This document shows positions 8,606 through 14,862 of a stretch of 14,862 bases of DNA, one piece after another. The stretch lies in NCBI GenBank assembly GCA_002343715.1, contig DDSA01000034.1, positions 6,623-21,484 of the forward strand, read 5' to 3'. Both the position numbers and the translations under genes were made by a program. The notes below the pieces were generated by a model that was given only the letters and a program-made list of their open reading frames with translations, searched no databases and was not told the origin of the DNA. Origin of the DNA: Phycisphaerales bacterium UBA2402. Lineage in GTDB: Bacteria; Planctomycetota; Phycisphaerae; Phycisphaerales; UBA1924. The number at the start of each line of letters is the position of its first letter. Positions within the stretch are counted from its first letter, which is position 1.

Positions 8606-8762
8606 TGTCTCGTGAATGAGTCGGTACTGTGGTCGAAAGGGACCAATGGTAGGTGAGTGGAGTTATTCACGTATCGGCGGGCAAGCGCTCGGGCATCCTC
8701 GCGAGCATCGGGTACAAACCATGAAGTAGGCAAATGTGTTATAGGACTTATTGTGGTACTCA

Positions 8763-8799
8763 AAAAGACCGCGACCCCGAGCGCGGCGTTCGGGGTCGC
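8763..8799 (-). terminator. Intrinsic terminator on the minus strand, no gene assigned
   Basis: GCGACCCCGA (8771-8780) pairs perfectly with TCGGGGTCGC (8790-8799) around a 9-nt loop. Read on the minus strand, the stem is followed after GGTC by a run of five T. This is a textbook rho-independent shape for transcripts moving left. The plus strand has no T-run after the stem. No minus-strand gene lies directly upstream: the lyase gene there is on the plus strand, and serS ends about 1 kb away. Confidence 0.65.
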
Positions 8800-9849: not shown

Positions 9850-11277
9850 TCAGCCGATCCGGTCACGCCCGCCCATGTAGGGGCGCAGGGCGGCGGGGAC
9901 GGTCACGCTGCCGTCCTTGTTCTGGTGCATTTCGAGCAGCGGGATCAGGAAACGCGGGCTGGCGAGGACGGTGTTGTTCAGCGAGTGGCAGAACGTGGTA
10001 TCGCCCTTGCCACCCTCGCCGCCCGAGCGGTACCGCATGTTGAGTCGGCGGCACTGGAAGTCGTAGAGGCGGCTGGCGGAGTGCGTCTCGCCGTACGCGC
10101 CGCGGGGGCGACCCTCGGCATCGAGTTCGCCGCGGCCGGGCATCCAACTCTCGATGTCGATCATGTCGGCGTTCTTGAATCCCAGGTCGCCGGTGCAGCA
10201 TTGGAGCAGGCGGTGGGGGATCTCGAGCGCTCGCAGGATCTCCTCAACGAAGCCGATCATCTTCTGGTGCCAGGTTCGGCTCTCGGCCTCATCGGCGCGG
10301 CAGATGACCACCTGCTCAACCTTGTCGAACTGGTGGATGCGGTACAGCCCGGCGGTGTCCTTGCCCGCGGCGCCGGCCTCGCGGCGGAAGCAGGTACTCA
10401 CAGTGACATAGCGGAGCGGGAGCGCCGCTTCATCGAGAATCTCCCCCTGGTGGATTCCCATCAGGCCGACCTCGCCGGTGCCGGTGAGGAAGAGGTCCTG
10501 ACCCTTGCCCGCCGCATCGGGACCGGCCCGGTGGGACTCGTCCACGAGGTAGGCCTGCTCCTTGCCCGCTGGGAAGAAGCCCGTGCCGAGCATCGCCTCT
10601 TCCCGGACGAGCACGGGCACGCTCGTGGGAGAGAAGCCCTGTTTTTCGACCATGAAGTCAAGGGCGAAGCGCTGCACCGCCAGGTGCAGGCGCATCCCGT
10701 CGCCGGTCAGGATGTACGAGCGTGCGCCCGCGAGTTTGACACCGCGCTCGAAGTCGGCCAGATGCAGGTCACGCACCAGTTCAAGGTGGGTTTTGGGCGT
10801 GAACCCCTTGTTCTCCCGGAAAGACCGGGCGGTGTCGAACCAGGCCGGGTTCCATCGACGCAGTTCGATGTTGTCGTCGCTCCCCGCGCCGATGGGCACA
10901 TCGGGATCGGGTGGAAGGGGCACTTGGATGAGGATCGTGTTCAGTTCCGGCTCGAGTGCCGCCAGTTGAGTCTCGAGGTCTGCGATCTGGCCCTTGAGCG
11001 CCGCGGGCCGGGCGGTCAGGTCGTCGAGTTCTTTCTGGATCGCGCCTGCCTGCTCGGGCGGGGCCTTTTTGAGCGAAGCCTTGAGTTGTCCGATTCTGGG
11101 GCCGCACTCCTTTGCCATCTTGTTCTGCTCGGCGCGAAGACTCTCGGCACGGGCGAGCAGGGCGCGGCGCTGCTCGTCGAGCGTCAGGAGACGGTCGATG
11201 TCCGCGGGGATGCGCTTCTTCGCGCACCCATCGCGGAAACGCTGGGGATTCTCACGCAACGCCTTCAGGTCGATCAT
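9850..11277 (-). CDS. serS: Seryl-tRNA synthetase
   Basis: The 475-residue class II enzyme charges tRNA-Ser (and tRNA-Sec where present) with serine. The start ATG at 11277 gives the typical N-terminus MIDLKALRENPQRF. Residues about 28-115 form the antiparallel coiled-coil arm that grips the tRNA variable arm. The catalytic core shows the TxE loop (TGTGEV, Thr267/Glu269), motif 2 (CFRREAGAAGKDTAGL then HQFDKVE) and motif 3 (HSLNNTVLASPRFLIPLLE, Arg442), ending PAALRPYMGG. It is longer than the usual 420-430 residues, partly because of an insert at about 248-262 before the TxE loop. The normally conserved E-I-S-S-C-S-N block is replaced by ETHSASRLYDFQCRR, and the motif 3 serine in NGSG is NNTV here. 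The arm and all three motifs are intact, so it is probably functional. Its start codon overlaps that of the divergent polyvalent-protein frame by 2 bp. Confidence 0.95.
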   Translation of the reverse strand: MIDLKALRENPQRFRDGCAKKRIPADIDRLLTLDEQRRALLARAESLRAEQNKMAKECGPRIGQLKASLKKAPPEQAGAIQKELDDLTARPAALKGQIADLETQLAALEPELNTILIQVPLPPDPDVPIGAGSDDNIELRRWNPAWFDTARSFRENKGFTPKTHLELVRDLHLADFERGVKLAGARSYILTGDGMRLHLAVQRFALDFMVEKQGFSPTSVPVLVREEAMLGTGFFPAGKEQAYLVDESHRAGPDAAGKGQDLFLTGTGEVGLMGIHQGEILDEAALPLRYVTVSTCFRREAGAAGKDTAGLYRIHQFDKVEQVVICRADEAESRTWHQKMIGFVEEILRALEIPHRLLQCCTGDLGFKNADMIDIESWMPGRGELDAEGRPRGAYGETHSASRLYDFQCRRLNMRYRSGGEGGKGDTTFCHSLNNTVLASPRFLIPLLEMHQNKDGSVTVPAALRPYMGGRDRIG

Positions 11278-14200
11278 GGGGCGGAGTGTAGGGGATGAGG
11301 GTGTGGCGCGGGCCGTGGAGGCCCTGGCCGATGATCCGCAGGTCGCGTCCAGGCTGACCGCGGACCCGGGGCTGTTGGCCCGTCTGCGCGCCTTTGTCGC
11401 CGACACGCTCGCGCGGCTGGGGTTCAAGGGGACCATCGGCAGGCACCGGATCGCGGTGCGGGACGCGGTGCTGAGGGCGTTGGATGAGGCCGCACGCGAC
11501 CGCCGGGCAGAGACGGATTCGCCCCGCTTCTCCATCGCCGAGAGCGCGGATGCCGGGTACGGCGATCGCACAGCCAGGATCGAGCGCAACTGGGAGCGGT
11601 TGCAGCGCCGCGCGGATGTGCCCGAGCCGATGGAGACGGTCCTGAGAACCCGCCGGTTCTCGGCGATGCCGCCCCGCACGCGGATGCTCGCGGCTTTCCG
11701 TCACGTCATGGACCATCTGCGGGACGAATACACCAACGAGTCCACCGGATGGACCATCCGCGTGAGCAAGAGCAGCGCCAAGGAACTCTCCGGCAAACGC
11801 GATGATCCGTGGAGGCTCGACGCGCTGGATGTGCTGCCCGACCTGATCCGCCGGGCCGTGCTGGGCGATTCCCACCCCGACACCAAGGGGCGGCCCGAGG
11901 TCAAGGCCGTGCATCACCTGTACGCGCCTATGCGAGCGCCCGATGCCGGTCTGGAGACCGGCTCCACCAGGAGCAGGCCCGATCGGCGTTTCGTGGTCGA
12001 GTTGACCGTGTTCGAGTTGCAGGACGGGCGCAAACTCTACAATCACGACCTGGTGGAAATAAGCGACCCCGCGGAATCTCCCCCCGGCGGTCGCGTGAGC
12101 GACTCCCCGGAGAGCATCGCGGGGTCGGAGAATGATACGCCGCCGGAGGCGGATATCAGGTTCTCCATCGCCCCGCTCGTCGAGAGCGAGGCGTTCAAGC
12201 GCTGGTTCGGCGACAGCAAGGTCGTGGACAAGGACGGCAAGCCGCTGGTGGTGTACCACGGTGGCCGCCGATTCAATCGTTTCGATGCGGCAGCGCAGCC
12301 GCAATCCGGTGCCGCGCATCCCGCTTTTTTCTTCACGTCGAGCCGTGCCAACGCGATGTTCTACGAGGACGGTGAGATCAAGCAGGTCTACCTGTCCATC
12401 GAGAATCCACGGGTGTTCGAGGGTGAGGAGGCTTCGGAACATTCACCGGCGGACTTGGTGAGAGAGACGTTTGCGCAGGTCATGCGCGGGGAGGCCGAAT
12501 GGGACGGGGTCATCATCCGTGATGTCGTGGACGGGCGGACGCGATCCGACATTTACGCGGTGTTCCCGGATGCTGACGGCGCCTCCGCCCAAATCAAGAG
12601 CGCCACCGGCAACCGGGGCACCTTCGACCCAGAGAACCCGGATATCAGGTTCAGCGTGGGGCGGGCGGGGGACGGCAGGAAGCGAGGGAGGCTTGGCCCG
12701 ATCTTCGAGCGCTTCAAGGGGCGTGCGCGCAGCGCGATCAACTTCCTTCGACGCCAGAAGGAGGGAGAAGCCGTGGGCGTCCTCACACACCCGGATGTCC
12801 GTCTGCCGGACGGGAGGCCAGCGCCCATCAGCCTGGTGGTTGGTCGCGGCGGAGAGCAGGGCATGGGCATCCGGCACATCGACGAGAAGCACCCCGGCGA
12901 TCTGGATGCGCTCCCCGATGTCTGGAATCGGCTCCGCCTCAACAAGGCCAAGAGCGATGCCCATCGGGCCGTGCTGGACGGGGACGGATACCGGGCCGTG
13001 GTCCATGACCGATACAACGACCAACCGCCGCACTGGGTTGTGACGTTCTTCGCACGCGATGCGCAGGGAGAAGGTTCCGCTACCGGGCGAAGGTCACCAG
13101 TGCCCGGATCCGCCGTTCCCGGCGGGGATGGGACTCCCCCATCCGCAGAACCTTCACCGGATGATACGCCCGGTAGCGGGCCGCGGTTCTCCATCGCCCC
13201 GCTCGTCGAGAGCGAGGCGTTCAAGCGCTGGTTCGGCGACAGCAAGGTCGTGGATGAGGACGGCAAGCCCCTGGTGGTGTACCACGGGACACAGAACGTC
13301 TTTACGGCGTTCAACACGGTGGCCGATGGTGATCTCGGATCCCACTTCGGTACACGCGACCAGGCGGCGGCGTTTGCGGGCGGGAGTGCCTACGGGCGGA
13401 TGATGCCCGTTTATCTCTCCATCCAGAACCCCGTCCGTCTGATCGACACGGGCGAGTGGAGCGATGCCGAGGTTCTGCCGCAGTTGGAGCGTCTTGGTCT
13501 GATCGACTCCGTCGAGGAGGCCGGTGAGCGTTCGGCCCGTGAGATTCTGCAACAGGCCGGGTACGACGGCGTCGTGTACATGAACCGCCGCGAGGGGTTC
13601 GGCAAGCCGCTGATCCAGCGCATCGGCCAGGACGCTCACGATCGGGAGTTGCGCAAGCCCATGTCCGATGCGGCCTTCCGCCGGTTGGTCCCCGAGGCGA
13701 CGGACTCGTACATCGCCTTCGACCCCGCGCAGATCAAGAGCGCCACCGGCAACCGCGGCACCTTCGACCCTGGGAACCCGGATATCAGGTTCAGTGTGGA
13801 GCGGGCGGAGGACGGCACGCGGAGCGGGCCGTTCGGCCCCATCTACACCCGCTTCAAGGGGCGGTTCCGCAACGCCCTCAACTTCCTCCGCCGCGAGCGG
13901 GACGGCGAGGCGGTCGGCGTGCTGGATCACCCCGATGTGCCCGGGCCGATCAGCCTGGTGTGGGGCAAGGTCGGCACGGCGGCCAACAGGTACGAGGACG
14001 GGTACGGCATCGCCAAGATGGACGTGAAGCACCCCGGCGTGGTCGATGTGTTGCCGAGCATTTTGCCTTCGCTGCGCGGGGTGAGATCGTCGGCGGACCC
14101 ATCCAAGATCGTGCTCCGTGGCGATGAACACACGGTCGTTGTTCAGCATGGGTGGAACGGGCGTGGCAGCTACTGGCTGGTCACGGCCTACCGCAAAACG

Positions 14201-14862
14201 GGCGAAGGTCCCGCCCTCGGGCAAACGGCTGGCGTGCCCGAAACGCCCGTCGCCGGGCGGGGTGAGACTTCCTCACCCGCGAAACCTTCGCCGGATGATA
14301 CGCCCGAAGGCGGGCCGCGGTTCTCCATCGCCCCGCCCGTCGAGAGCGAGGCGTTCAAGCGGTGGTTCAAGGACAGCAAGGTCGTGGATGAGGACGGCAA
14401 GCCGCTGGTGGTGTACCACGGCAGCCCGGATGTGCGGGGCATCTTCGCCAAAGGGTTCGGTCGTTACACCTCGGACGGCACCTGGTTCGCCGCGGCGGAC
14501 TATCGGGTGGCCGATTCGTACGCCGATGATCGTCGCGCGTTCGACTATCAGAACGCGGAGCCGCAGACGATCCCGCTGTATCTCTCCATCCGCAACCCGC
14601 TCATCGTCGATGCCGAAGGACGCACCTGGAAGCACACACAGAAGTACATCGACCAGGCCAGGGCGGCGGGCCACGACGGGATCATCATCCGCAACACCGT
14701 CGATTACTACCTGACCAGCAAGGGGAGCGGCCAGAAGCCCACCACCGTCTACGCCTGGTTCATGCCGTCCCAGGCCAAGTCCGCCGTGCAGGGGCAGTTG
14801 CGTTCCCGCATCGATGGCAAGCCCATCGAAGGGGCCACCGGCAACCGCGGCACGTTCGACCC
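11276..14862 (+). CDS. Polyvalent-type multidomain protein: LPD3-like, ART, PBECR, ART, PBECR, ART (runs off window)
   Basis: At least 1195 codons without a stop. From the ATG at 11276: residues 1-80 are helical; 84-90 carry PRFSIAE; about 123-266 resemble the large-polyvalent-associated domain LPD3 (STGWTIRVSKSSAKE, VHHLYAPM, FVVELTVFE, KLYNHDLVEI). Then alternate modules: ART-PolyVal (296-457, 638-837, 1016-end), each starting FSIAP.VESEAFKRWF and reaching VVYHG, with [YHW]DG(I/V) and QIKSA..GNRGTFDP; and PBECR nucleases (474-595, 854-974) with ERFKG/TRFKG, ISLVWG-like and KHPG. Such proteins are co-injected or transferred by phages and conjugative elements to modify the new host (Iyer/Aravind polyvalent proteins). 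Here the usual N-terminal domains are missing. The frame is open upstream to 10970, antisense to serS. GTG 11303, preceded by GGGGATGAGG, is a likelier start by ribosome-binding signal. It may be the surviving C-terminal part of a longer gene. Confidence 0.8.
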   Translation, partial: MGRSVGDEGVARAVEALADDPQVASRLTADPGLLARLRAFVADTLARLGFKGTIGRHRIAVRDAVLRALDEAARDRRAETDSPRFSIAESADAGYGDRTARIERNWERLQRRADVPEPMETVLRTRRFSAMPPRTRMLAAFRHVMDHLRDEYTNESTGWTIRVSKSSAKELSGKRDDPWRLDALDVLPDLIRRAVLGDSHPDTKGRPEVKAVHHLYAPMRAPDAGLETGSTRSRPDRRFVVELTVFELQDGRKLYNHDLVEISDPAESPPGGRVSDSPESIAGSENDTPPEADIRFSIAPLVESEAFKRWFGDSKVVDKDGKPLVVYHGGRRFNRFDAAAQPQSGAAHPAFFFTSSRANAMFYEDGEIKQVYLSIENPRVFEGEEASEHSPADLVRETFAQVMRGEAEWDGVIIRDVVDGRTRSDIYAVFPDADGASAQIKSATGNRGTFDPENPDIRFSVGRAGDGRKRGRLGPIFERFKGRARSAINFLRRQKEGEAVGVLTHPDVRLPDGRPAPISLVVGRGGEQGMGIRHIDEKHPGDLDALPDVWNRLRLNKAKSDAHRAVLDGDGYRAVVHDRYNDQPPHWVVTFFARDAQGEGSATGRRSPVPGSAVPGGDGTPPSAEPSPDDTPGSGPRFSIAPLVESEAFKRWFGDSKVVDEDGKPLVVYHGTQNVFTAFNTVADGDLGSHFGTRDQAAAFAGGSAYGRMMPVYLSIQNPVRLIDTGEWSDAEVLPQLERLGLIDSVEEAGERSAREILQQAGYDGVVYMNRREGFGKPLIQRIGQDAHDRELRKPMSDAAFRRLVPEATDSYIAFDPAQIKSATGNRGTFDPGNPDIRFSVERAEDGTRSGPFGPIYTRFKGRFRNALNFLRRERDGEAVGVLDHPDVPGPISLVWGKVGTAANRYEDGYGIAKMDVKHPGVVDVLPSILPSLRGVRSSADPSKIVLRGDEHTVVVQHGWNGRGSYWLVTAYRKTGEGPALGQTAGVPETPVAGRGETSSPAKPSPDDTPEGGPRFSIAPPVESEAFKRWFKDSKVVDEDGKPLVVYHGSPDVRGIFAKGFGRYTSDGTWFAAADYRVADSYADDRRAFDYQNAEPQTIPLYLSIRNPLIVDAEGRTWKHTQKYIDQARAAGHDGIIIRNTVDYYLTSKGSGQKPTTVYAWFMPSQAKSAVQGQLRSRIDGKPIEGATGNRGTFD
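11945..11962. repeat. Perfect 8-bp palindrome inside the LPD3-like domain
   Basis: GCCGGTCT (11945-11952) and AGACCGGC (11955-11962) are perfect inverted copies around GG. The bases encode AGLETG in a segment (about RAPDAGLETGSTRSRPD) that interrupts the expected run from YAPM to the FVVELTV strand, so it looks like an in-frame insertion of a small palindromic element. Confidence 0.45.
12064..12152. repeat. Linker 1: inverted repeats before the first ART module
   Basis: CGACCCCGCG (12064-12073) and CGCGGGGTCG (12118-12127) are a perfect 10-bp inverted repeat. Inside it GTCGC-GTGA-GCGAC forms a hairpin (12090-12103). After a TGATACG motif comes CCGCC-GGA-GGCGG (12140-12152). All of it is translated as a Pro/Ser/Gly-rich linker ending DIRFS. 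It is related to linkers 2 and 3 but lacks their 35-nt twin hairpin. Confidence 0.55.
12161..13060 (+). repeat. Repeat unit 1: ART module plus PBECR module
   Basis: This is the first of three repeated units, 1026 nt before the start of the second. Bases 12161-12261 match unit 2 with 3 mismatches in 101 and unit 3 with 7. Bases 12590-12676 match unit 2 (13730-13816) with 7 mismatches in 87. The ART core between these edges is divergent: 328 nt here against 442 in unit 2. ART residues visible: YHGG, FFFTSS, WDGVIIRDV, SDIYAVF. PBECR (12695-13060) has GIRHIDEKHPG with both His. Confidence 0.75.
13070..13180. repeat. Linker 2: nested and abutting hairpins between units 1 and 2
   Basis: CCGCTACCGGGCG (13077-13089) is the perfect inverse of 13167-13179; GAAGGTTC (13070-13077) is the inverse of 13148-13155. 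The middle 35 nt hold two abutting hairpins: CCGCCG/CGGCGG (13110-13115, 13120-13125, 4-nt loop) and GGATGGG/CCCATCC (13126-13132, 13138-13144, 5-nt loop). GATGATACG (13160-13168) is followed by CCCG-GTAG-CGGG. The bases are translated as a Pro/Gly/Ser linker ending PRFS. Confidence 0.7.
13187..14196 (+). repeat. Repeat unit 2: ART module plus PBECR module
   Basis: Second unit, with the next unit starting 1134 nt later. ART residues visible: YHGT, HFGT, YDGVVYMN, TDSYIAF, then QIKSATGNRGTFDP and NPDIRFS. The ART core is longer than in unit 1. PBECR (13835-14196) has SLVWG and KHPG, but the first His of the family's H-I pair reads Lys-Met (GIAKMDVKHPG). Confidence 0.75.
14201..14314. repeat. 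Linker 3: hairpins matching linker 2 in geometry
   Basis: CCCGCCCTCGGGC (14210-14222) is the inverse of 14302-14314 with one mismatch; GGCGAAGG (14201-14208) is the perfect inverse of 14285-14292. The middle 35 nt hold CGCCCG/CGGGCG (14244-14249, 14254-14259) directly followed by GGGTGAG/CTCACCC (14260-14266, 14272-14278), with the same stem and loop lengths as linker 2. GATGATACG (14294-14302) overlaps the hairpin CGCC-CGAA-GGCG (14301-14312). Confidence 0.7.
14321..14862 (+). repeat. Repeat unit 3 (partial): ART module
   Basis: This third ART module is cut by the window end within its GATGNRGTFD motif. Bases 14321-14421 match unit 2 with 6 mismatches in 101. Residues visible: YHGS, TWFAAADYRVADSYA, HDGIIIRNT. 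The segment before the QAKSA motif reads PTTVYAWF, without the Asp seen in units 1 and 2. Whether another PBECR module follows cannot be seen. Confidence 0.75.

Follow-up and report, generated by a model that had tools for sequence, protein, structure and literature searches.

Compensatory changes in two in-frame palindromic linkers of a Phycisphaerales polyvalent-protein gene

Two linkers in a polyvalent-protein gene of Phycisphaerales bacterium UBA2402 each hold a pair of adjoining hairpins whose stems have changed between the copies in a compensated manner, and this covariation of the twin hairpins is real and not due to chance. The hairpins are part of a larger palindromic element of 92 nt, translated in frame between a PBECR-type and an ART module. 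Our best explanation, which we hold tentatively and with slightly less than even confidence, is that template-switch correction keeps the arms of this coding palindrome symmetrical, and that selection on structure may contribute.

The gene lies in an analysed stretch of 14,862 bases, here called the window, as an open frame at 11276-14862 on the plus strand, with a start codon placed by comparison with the relative P0122 and a 3' end that enters an assembly gap. Contig C128 holds the 3' part and, after it, genes for an SNF2-type helicase and for household functions (named from reading their translations), and a divergent serS adjoins the 5' end. Pfam recognises, all above cut-offs, LPD3 (57.7 bits), ART-PolyVal in three stretches (191.9 bits) and a single PBECR1 (31.4 bits), the first PBECR-like module being assigned only through its similarity to the second; the product is thus a polyvalent protein, with several effector domains of the ART-PolyVal, PBECR and LPD families in one large chain. 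Two PBECR-linker-ART units within it are homologous over their full length, and their linkers, numbered 2 and 3, align without gaps and differ at 31 of 114 sites over 13066-13179.

In linker 2, hairpin H1 occupies 13110-13125 (6 bp, 4-nt loop) and hairpin H2 13126-13144 (7 bp, 5-nt loop); in linker 3 the hairpins of the same dimensions lie at 14244-14259 and 14260-14278. Both 35-nt blocks (13110-13144 and 14244-14278) described in the first-pass annotation are therefore present with this architecture, as is their equal spacing to GATGATACG, with 15 nt between in either linker. The H1 stems read CCGCCG/CGGCGG in linker 2 and CGCCCG/CGGGCG in linker 3, and the H2 stems GGATGGG/CCCATCC and GGGTGAG/CTCACCC, so that four of the 13 pairs differ, each altered on both sides, and none is broken, exactly as had been claimed. 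Neither hairpin contains a wobble pair, and two of the compensated pairs are C-G/G-C swaps, which have no G-U intermediate. Folded alone, the blocks reach -22.8 and -22.7 kcal/mol (z -3.3 and -3.7), and neighbouring perfect hairpins (stems of at least 6, loops of 3-7, gap of at most 3 nt) occur in the window at just these two places.

That eight changes among 26 stem bases should land as four compensated pairs has a probability of 5.7e-6, and when linker 2 was given 31 random changes in each of 200,000 simulations, all 13 pairs survived in 712 (G-U allowed) and in one of these were joined by at least four double changes; the figures of 5.7e-6 and 1 in 200,000 are post hoc, the stems having been chosen since both copies form them. 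Column shuffles of the linker alignment never attained the observed seven covarying pairs, two of which have base 13083 in common (0 of 1000 shuffles; mean 0.2), and a control repeat of the same gene, D2 (47 differences in 219 nt), yielded no covarying helices. Among 20,000 synonymous recodings, 11 and 27 retained all 13 pairs for the two linkers, so few that neither the peptide nor codon usage can be said to dictate the stems, and none matched the number of pairs held over four helices.

The palindromic elements, at 13067-13158 and 14201-14292, each fill the linker between the PBECR-type and the ART module and fold into a three-armed cloverleaf; neither they nor their helices are assigned to a strand. 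In linker 2 coordinates, a closing stem common to both copies (13067-13080 with 13145-13158) encloses H1, H2 and a third arm, Hc, at 13083-13107 (6 bp, 13083-13088 with 13102-13107, and a 13-nt loop). The outermost pair of Hc covaries from C-G in linker 2 to T-A in linker 3 (14217-14241), and a seventh pair is G-T in linker 2 and A-T in linker 3. An alternative long-range helix, Hb, spans 13077-13179 (13077-13089 with 13167-13179), excludes the closing stem and Hc, and pairs at 13 of 13 positions in linker 2 and 11 of 13 in linker 3. Positions 13083, 13107 and 13173 form a linked triple change (C, G and G in linker 2; T, A and A in linker 3), in which one base with two alternative partners has kept its complementarity to both.

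The minus strand of either copy, whether modelled as RNA or as DNA, has this same cloverleaf as its minimum-energy fold; the plus strand adopts it in linker 3 and, as DNA, also in linker 2, whereas plus-strand RNA of linker 2 prefers Hb. Of the 66 pair cells in the cloverleaf of the minus strand, 65 are standard; three pairs show a one-sided change to G-U, one is U-U against C-G, and five of the 33 pairs covary between the two sequences, which 12 of 500 column shuffles also attain. Sliding the partners by 1-3 columns lowers the pairing to 39-53 per cent. When all helices are extended by one rule, eight cells are not Watson-Crick: five are G-U on the minus strand (two of them in an extension of the closing stem that was added because the minus-strand fold pairs it), two are G-U on the plus strand and one is neither. 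The strand bias of folding energy at the linkers is not unusual for this gene. The H1 loop reads GGAA (linker 2) and GCGA (linker 3) on the minus strand, each fitting the GNRA pattern. Changes fell on 15 of 66 paired and 13 of 26 unpaired sites (Fisher 0.022), or on 13 of 58 and 15 of 34 when only the earlier-known helices are counted (Fisher 0.036).

Linker 1 (12065-12126, strand unassigned), before the first ART module, forms a single long hairpin of unrelated sequence; its z is -2.9 to -3.4 over 110-113 nt and -1.4/-3.0 over 93 nt, and its DNA has little similarity to linkers 2 and 3. Rfam covariance models gave no match at E ≤ 1 on either strand of 11200-14862, a tRNA search found none, and a promoter consensus scan returned one weak match, at linker 1, with a weak -35-like partner (0.4 expected by chance). 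At 13160-13168 and 12132-12159, GATGATACG reads on the minus strand as CGTATCATC and holds a -10-like TATCAT just before the cloverleaf; of these, the consensus scan returned the linker-1 copy only.

The linker peptide is under no visible constraint, pN being close to pS: over 13067-13159 the two units share 70% DNA identity with pS 0.316 and pN 0.295, against pS 0.426 and pN 0.151 in the control repeat. Since the stems covary although the linker peptide is free to change, something acts at the level of the nucleic acid, be it selection or palindrome correction; the earlier suggestion that one of these two is at work, on RNA or single-stranded DNA structure in the case of selection, is thereby supported. 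Codon adaptation is 0.39 in linker 2, the lowest of the gene windows (mean 0.70), and 0.56 in linker 3. The preceding PBECR part, at 12860-13045, has 52% identity with pS 0.65 and pN 0.42 when a 6-nt gap near 13046 is allowed, and the following block on the plus strand, 13160-13290, from GATGATACG through the ART 5' end, is nearly identical (91%). Identity between the units thus climbs stepwise, and with the 6-nt gap in place the border of the element is not marked by any sharp jump. The lower divergence of the linker DNA, relative to the PBECR DNA that precedes it, reflects either a younger exchange or constraint on the DNA.

How strongly the linkers fold depends on the yardstick. Against dinucleotide shuffles, the 120-nt windows of the linkers take second and third place among 369; the one at 8721 (-3.67) comes first, and those at 11121 and 10441 are close. 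Inside that most strongly folded window (8721, z -3.7) lies a perfect 10-bp hairpin with a 9-nt loop (8771-8799), apparently intergenic and perhaps terminator-like. For linker 2, a 93-nt window on the element gives z -6.6 on the plus and -5.0 on the minus strand; for linker 3 the values are -5.0 and -6.7. Had many unrelated linkers of the genome folded equally well, the first-pass annotation would have counted this against structure; in fact one of 56 Pro/Gly-rich windows from the own genome and the relatives' loci attained z -3 on either strand, as compared with -5.0 to -6.7. In this comparison only the windows on the elements had been positioned for the best fit; the 56 controls had not, and they include two windows of linker 3 in shifted position, which gave -2.7 and -2.5. 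Of 4178 own-genome windows of 94 nt, drawn from 141,929 bases with overlapping loci counted, three equalled linker 2 in stability on the better strand, two of these being linker 3 itself. The third, L097:14323 on contig C128, reaches -61.2 kcal/mol on the plus strand.

The element was sought elsewhere with covariance models of its short and long forms (R1 and R2). In the own genome, whose assembly is 87% complete, and with search filters strict enough to lose some weak matches, the search for further copies of the architecture that had been proposed recovered the two linkers and no others at E ≤ 1. Among 40 relatives, R1 gave four weak matches in four of them (E 0.48-0.75) and R2 none. A dispersed element family was rejected on these grounds, the own genome holding two copies and the weak R1 matches being taken as chance. 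Neither of the two exact linker patterns matched a viral contig, no viral relative of the N-terminal part of the protein was found, and the ART-PBECR stretch was matched in two of 200 genomes and ART-PolyVal in four of 392 genomes of the phylum, the own genome included in both counts.

Nor do folded linkers appear to be a general feature of polyvalent genes or of ART modules. The survey covered the window and 37 loci with 41 ART starts, three of them in the window and excluded from the means; L047 and L049 lay outside it, and L062, L063, L065, L069, L081 and L083-L087 contributed no row (no motif match, short upstream sequence or repeated sequence). Upstream of the 38 other ART modules the mean folding z was -0.19, against -0.22 in the background, and the idea of a general linker feature was accordingly rejected. 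The share of windows with z below -2.5 was 0.044 upstream of ART modules (n=114) and 0.012 in the background (n=164), and single strongly folded ART linkers do exist (L070 at -3.8, L041 at -3.3 and L071 at -3.1). Cupriavidus pampae carries 11 ART-like module starts at L039:1504-10944, one with an in-frame stop upstream, and none of the linkers has twin hairpins; one start has a window of z -4.0 in one scan and -2.5 in the ART-upstream survey.

The closest relatives found, P0121, P0122 and P0017, are known as proteins only, and the collections searched yielded no third copy of the element at the DNA level. P0121 is identical within the region searched. P0122 has modules in common with the own genome, at 87-96% identity and in a different order: its PBECR module keeps linker 3 nearly letter for letter (GVPETPVAGRGETSSPA identical) and then continues into another domain, and its ART2 core is preceded by a different linker. 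P0017 has the N-terminal part in common with the window gene and another module order; it tracks the window through linker 1 as far as DIRFS, where a different domain begins. Compared with 11276-14862, the three look like alleles with common ends and a shuffled middle, the junctions being seen at an xRFS motif after the linkers, within the near-identical block. In the single case of P0122, the linker travels with the preceding module and the junction falls 3' of the hairpins. In a blastn search of the linker region against phages and plasmids, matches were confined to the ART 5' end (13160-13290 and 14294-14424), with 80-85% DNA identity over about 60-85 nt. The phage matches come from five records (two of Pseudomonas F116, USP_18, USP_25 and Dolichospermum Dfl-JY45), and the plasmid matches from another five; the ART cores differ. 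This conserved 5' end may be a general recombination handle.

We propose that each linker, joining a PBECR-type to an ART module, is a coding palindrome of some 92 nt read in frame, and that the two copies descend from one ancestor, duplicated or homogenised during module shuffling. Common ancestry is shown by the 70% identity of the linkers, the 91% identity of the ART 5' ends and the other module orders of the relatives. Because the peptide is an unconstrained spacer, the DNA would be free to stay palindromic. When the replicating strand folds, the polymerase could copy one arm from the other in short-loop hairpins, by template switching or quasi-palindrome correction, so that a mutation in one arm would be transferred to the other or erased; distant arms, to judge from the pattern, would be corrected less often. 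The outcome would resemble covariation under selection and would need no RNA function, though the folded strand may in addition be under a degree of selection. Template switching has been reported to create and maintain hairpins (PMC8794818) and to homogenise the arms of inverted repeats in coding genes (PMC8604942).

In favour of template-switch correction, compensation is far commoner in short-loop than in long-range helices: five of six changed pairs are fully compensated in H1, H2 and Hc and two of nine in the long-range helices under the uniform extension rule (Fisher 0.041), or five of five and two of eight with the helices as first drawn (Fisher 0.021), a contrast over 15 pairs that are not all independent, alternative helices having bases in common. 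The C-G/G-C swaps and the lack of wobble in H1 and H2 also count for template switching, as does the triple change, which no single fixed fold requires, and the near-equality of pN and pS, the codon dip of linker 2 and the failure to find the element elsewhere in the genome fit the same explanation. Reverse-complement footprints of at least 7 nt were not significant, their coverage being attained in 63 and 24 of 200 column shuffles, and direct-copy footprints did better (6 and 15 of 200). With two copies only, neither polarity nor the order of events can be read. Against pure template switching stand the lower rate of change where bases are paired and the loop that has stayed GNRA, both of which leave room for selection on the fold.

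Alternatively, the linker may encode a nucleic acid that works through its structure, such as an antisense RNA or a single-stranded minus-strand DNA with a three-armed cloverleaf, a GNRA tetraloop and an alternative long-range pairing, whose fold selection would keep while the sense peptide drifts. We regard this as unlikely: the shared minus-strand cloverleaf with its 65 of 66 standard cells, the passage from GGAA to GCGA within the GNRA form, the slower paired sites and the element z of -5.0 to -6.7 all agree with it, but the strand evidence is weak (five minus-strand against two plus-strand G-U cells, two of the five in a drawn extension), the plus strand also gives the cloverleaf for linker 3 and for linker 2 as DNA, Rfam is silent at E ≤ 1, the promoter-like match is weak and lies at linker 1, no copy was found outside the gene, and there are two sequences only. 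Hardly probable is the more elaborate form, a dual-coding linker whose plus strand would specify a spacer peptide and whose minus strand would be a selected, possibly bistable cloverleaf RNA or single-stranded DNA with a GNRA loop, travelling with PBECR-type RNase modules in a shuffling locus, for example as a gene regulator or an exchange mark. We also give little credence to the idea that the ribosome is held back between modules by mRNA structure and rare codons, which would give every domain time to fold ahead of synthesis of its successor; the position between domains, the codon dip of linker 2 and the strong plus-strand fold would suit it, whereas plus-strand energy is no better than in synonymous recodings, the 38 other ART linkers show no mean excess and the dip in linker 3 is mild (0.56).

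The first-pass annotation had offered, as a speculation, that the hairpins mark a recombination or exchange site between modules. On this view, single-stranded or cruciform linker DNA would start strand exchange and so create new ART/PBECR orders. The support is circumstantial: modules switch directly 3' of the linkers in P0122 and P0017 and identity between the units steps from 47% before the linker to 70% within it and 91% after it. Against it, the near-identical block of about 130 nt is enough for homologous recombination, identity has no sharp edge at the element, none of the 11 Cupriavidus ART starts has twin hairpins, and linker 1, likewise a swap boundary, folds differently. An exchange site is therefore neither excluded nor needed to explain the pattern, and we consider it distinctly unlikely. 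That GC-rich Pro/Gly/Ala codons (CCN against GGN) give rise to the stems as an ordinary side effect, the covariation being coincidental, was already disfavoured and seems to us very improbable. This idea draws on the total folding energy of the 120-nt linker windows, which does not stand out from that of synonymous recodings (z -0.13 and -1.20) because a Pro/Gly/Ala-rich peptide makes any coding fold strongly; recoding at the level of pairs, the 0 of 1000 column shuffles, the probability of 5.7e-6 and the 56 windows of like composition all weigh against it.

Protein-coding palindromes are known as Rickettsia palindromic elements (RPEs; reviewed in PMC10969869). Like these, the linker elements are palindromic DNA, of the order of 100-150 nt in the RPEs, translated in frame inside a bacterial gene; unlike the RPE families, which are dispersed over many genes, here there are two copies in one gene, with none found in unrelated genes elsewhere in the genome by R1 or R2 at E ≤ 1, and no empty site is known for the element. 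Hairpins maintained by template switching (PMC8794818), including coding cases in yeast (PMC8604942), likewise have perfect short stems, multi-base compensation and non-synonymous coding effects, and multi-base compensation in short-loop stems is found here as well (five of six changed pairs in H1, H2 and Hc). They differ in that our elements lack a significant reverse-complement footprint and that two copies preclude ancestral reconstruction. Coding palindromes of Nematomorpha mitochondria (PMC6649704) are similarly stringent inverted repeats in translated sequence; they are long and perfect and fall in parts of the protein that are conserved, whereas the linker elements are short-armed and lie in an unconstrained linker. 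The mosaic gene jhp1044 of Helicobacter (PMC5512222) offers a parallel: domains, including PBECR and LPD3, are duplicated and rearranged among orthologous polyvalent genes. The main text of that paper never uses the word linker; here linker DNA is the folded element at module boundaries. Among the titles and starts of abstracts that our partial coverage took in, which is no proof of absence, we found no report of folded linkers in polyvalent-protein genes.

Compensatory change is usually taken as strong evidence for functional RNA structure. Here the translated linker that shows it has no visible constraint on its peptide, and a single gene holds both copies; from two alone, the pattern could be a habit of palindrome copying and need not signify an RNA at work. 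Comparing further alleles could tell structural selection apart from correction by template switching, a question still open for RNA evolution. Were the exchange-site or the antisense-RNA reading true, the element would provide a nucleic-acid handle on module rearrangement in polyvalent effector genes.
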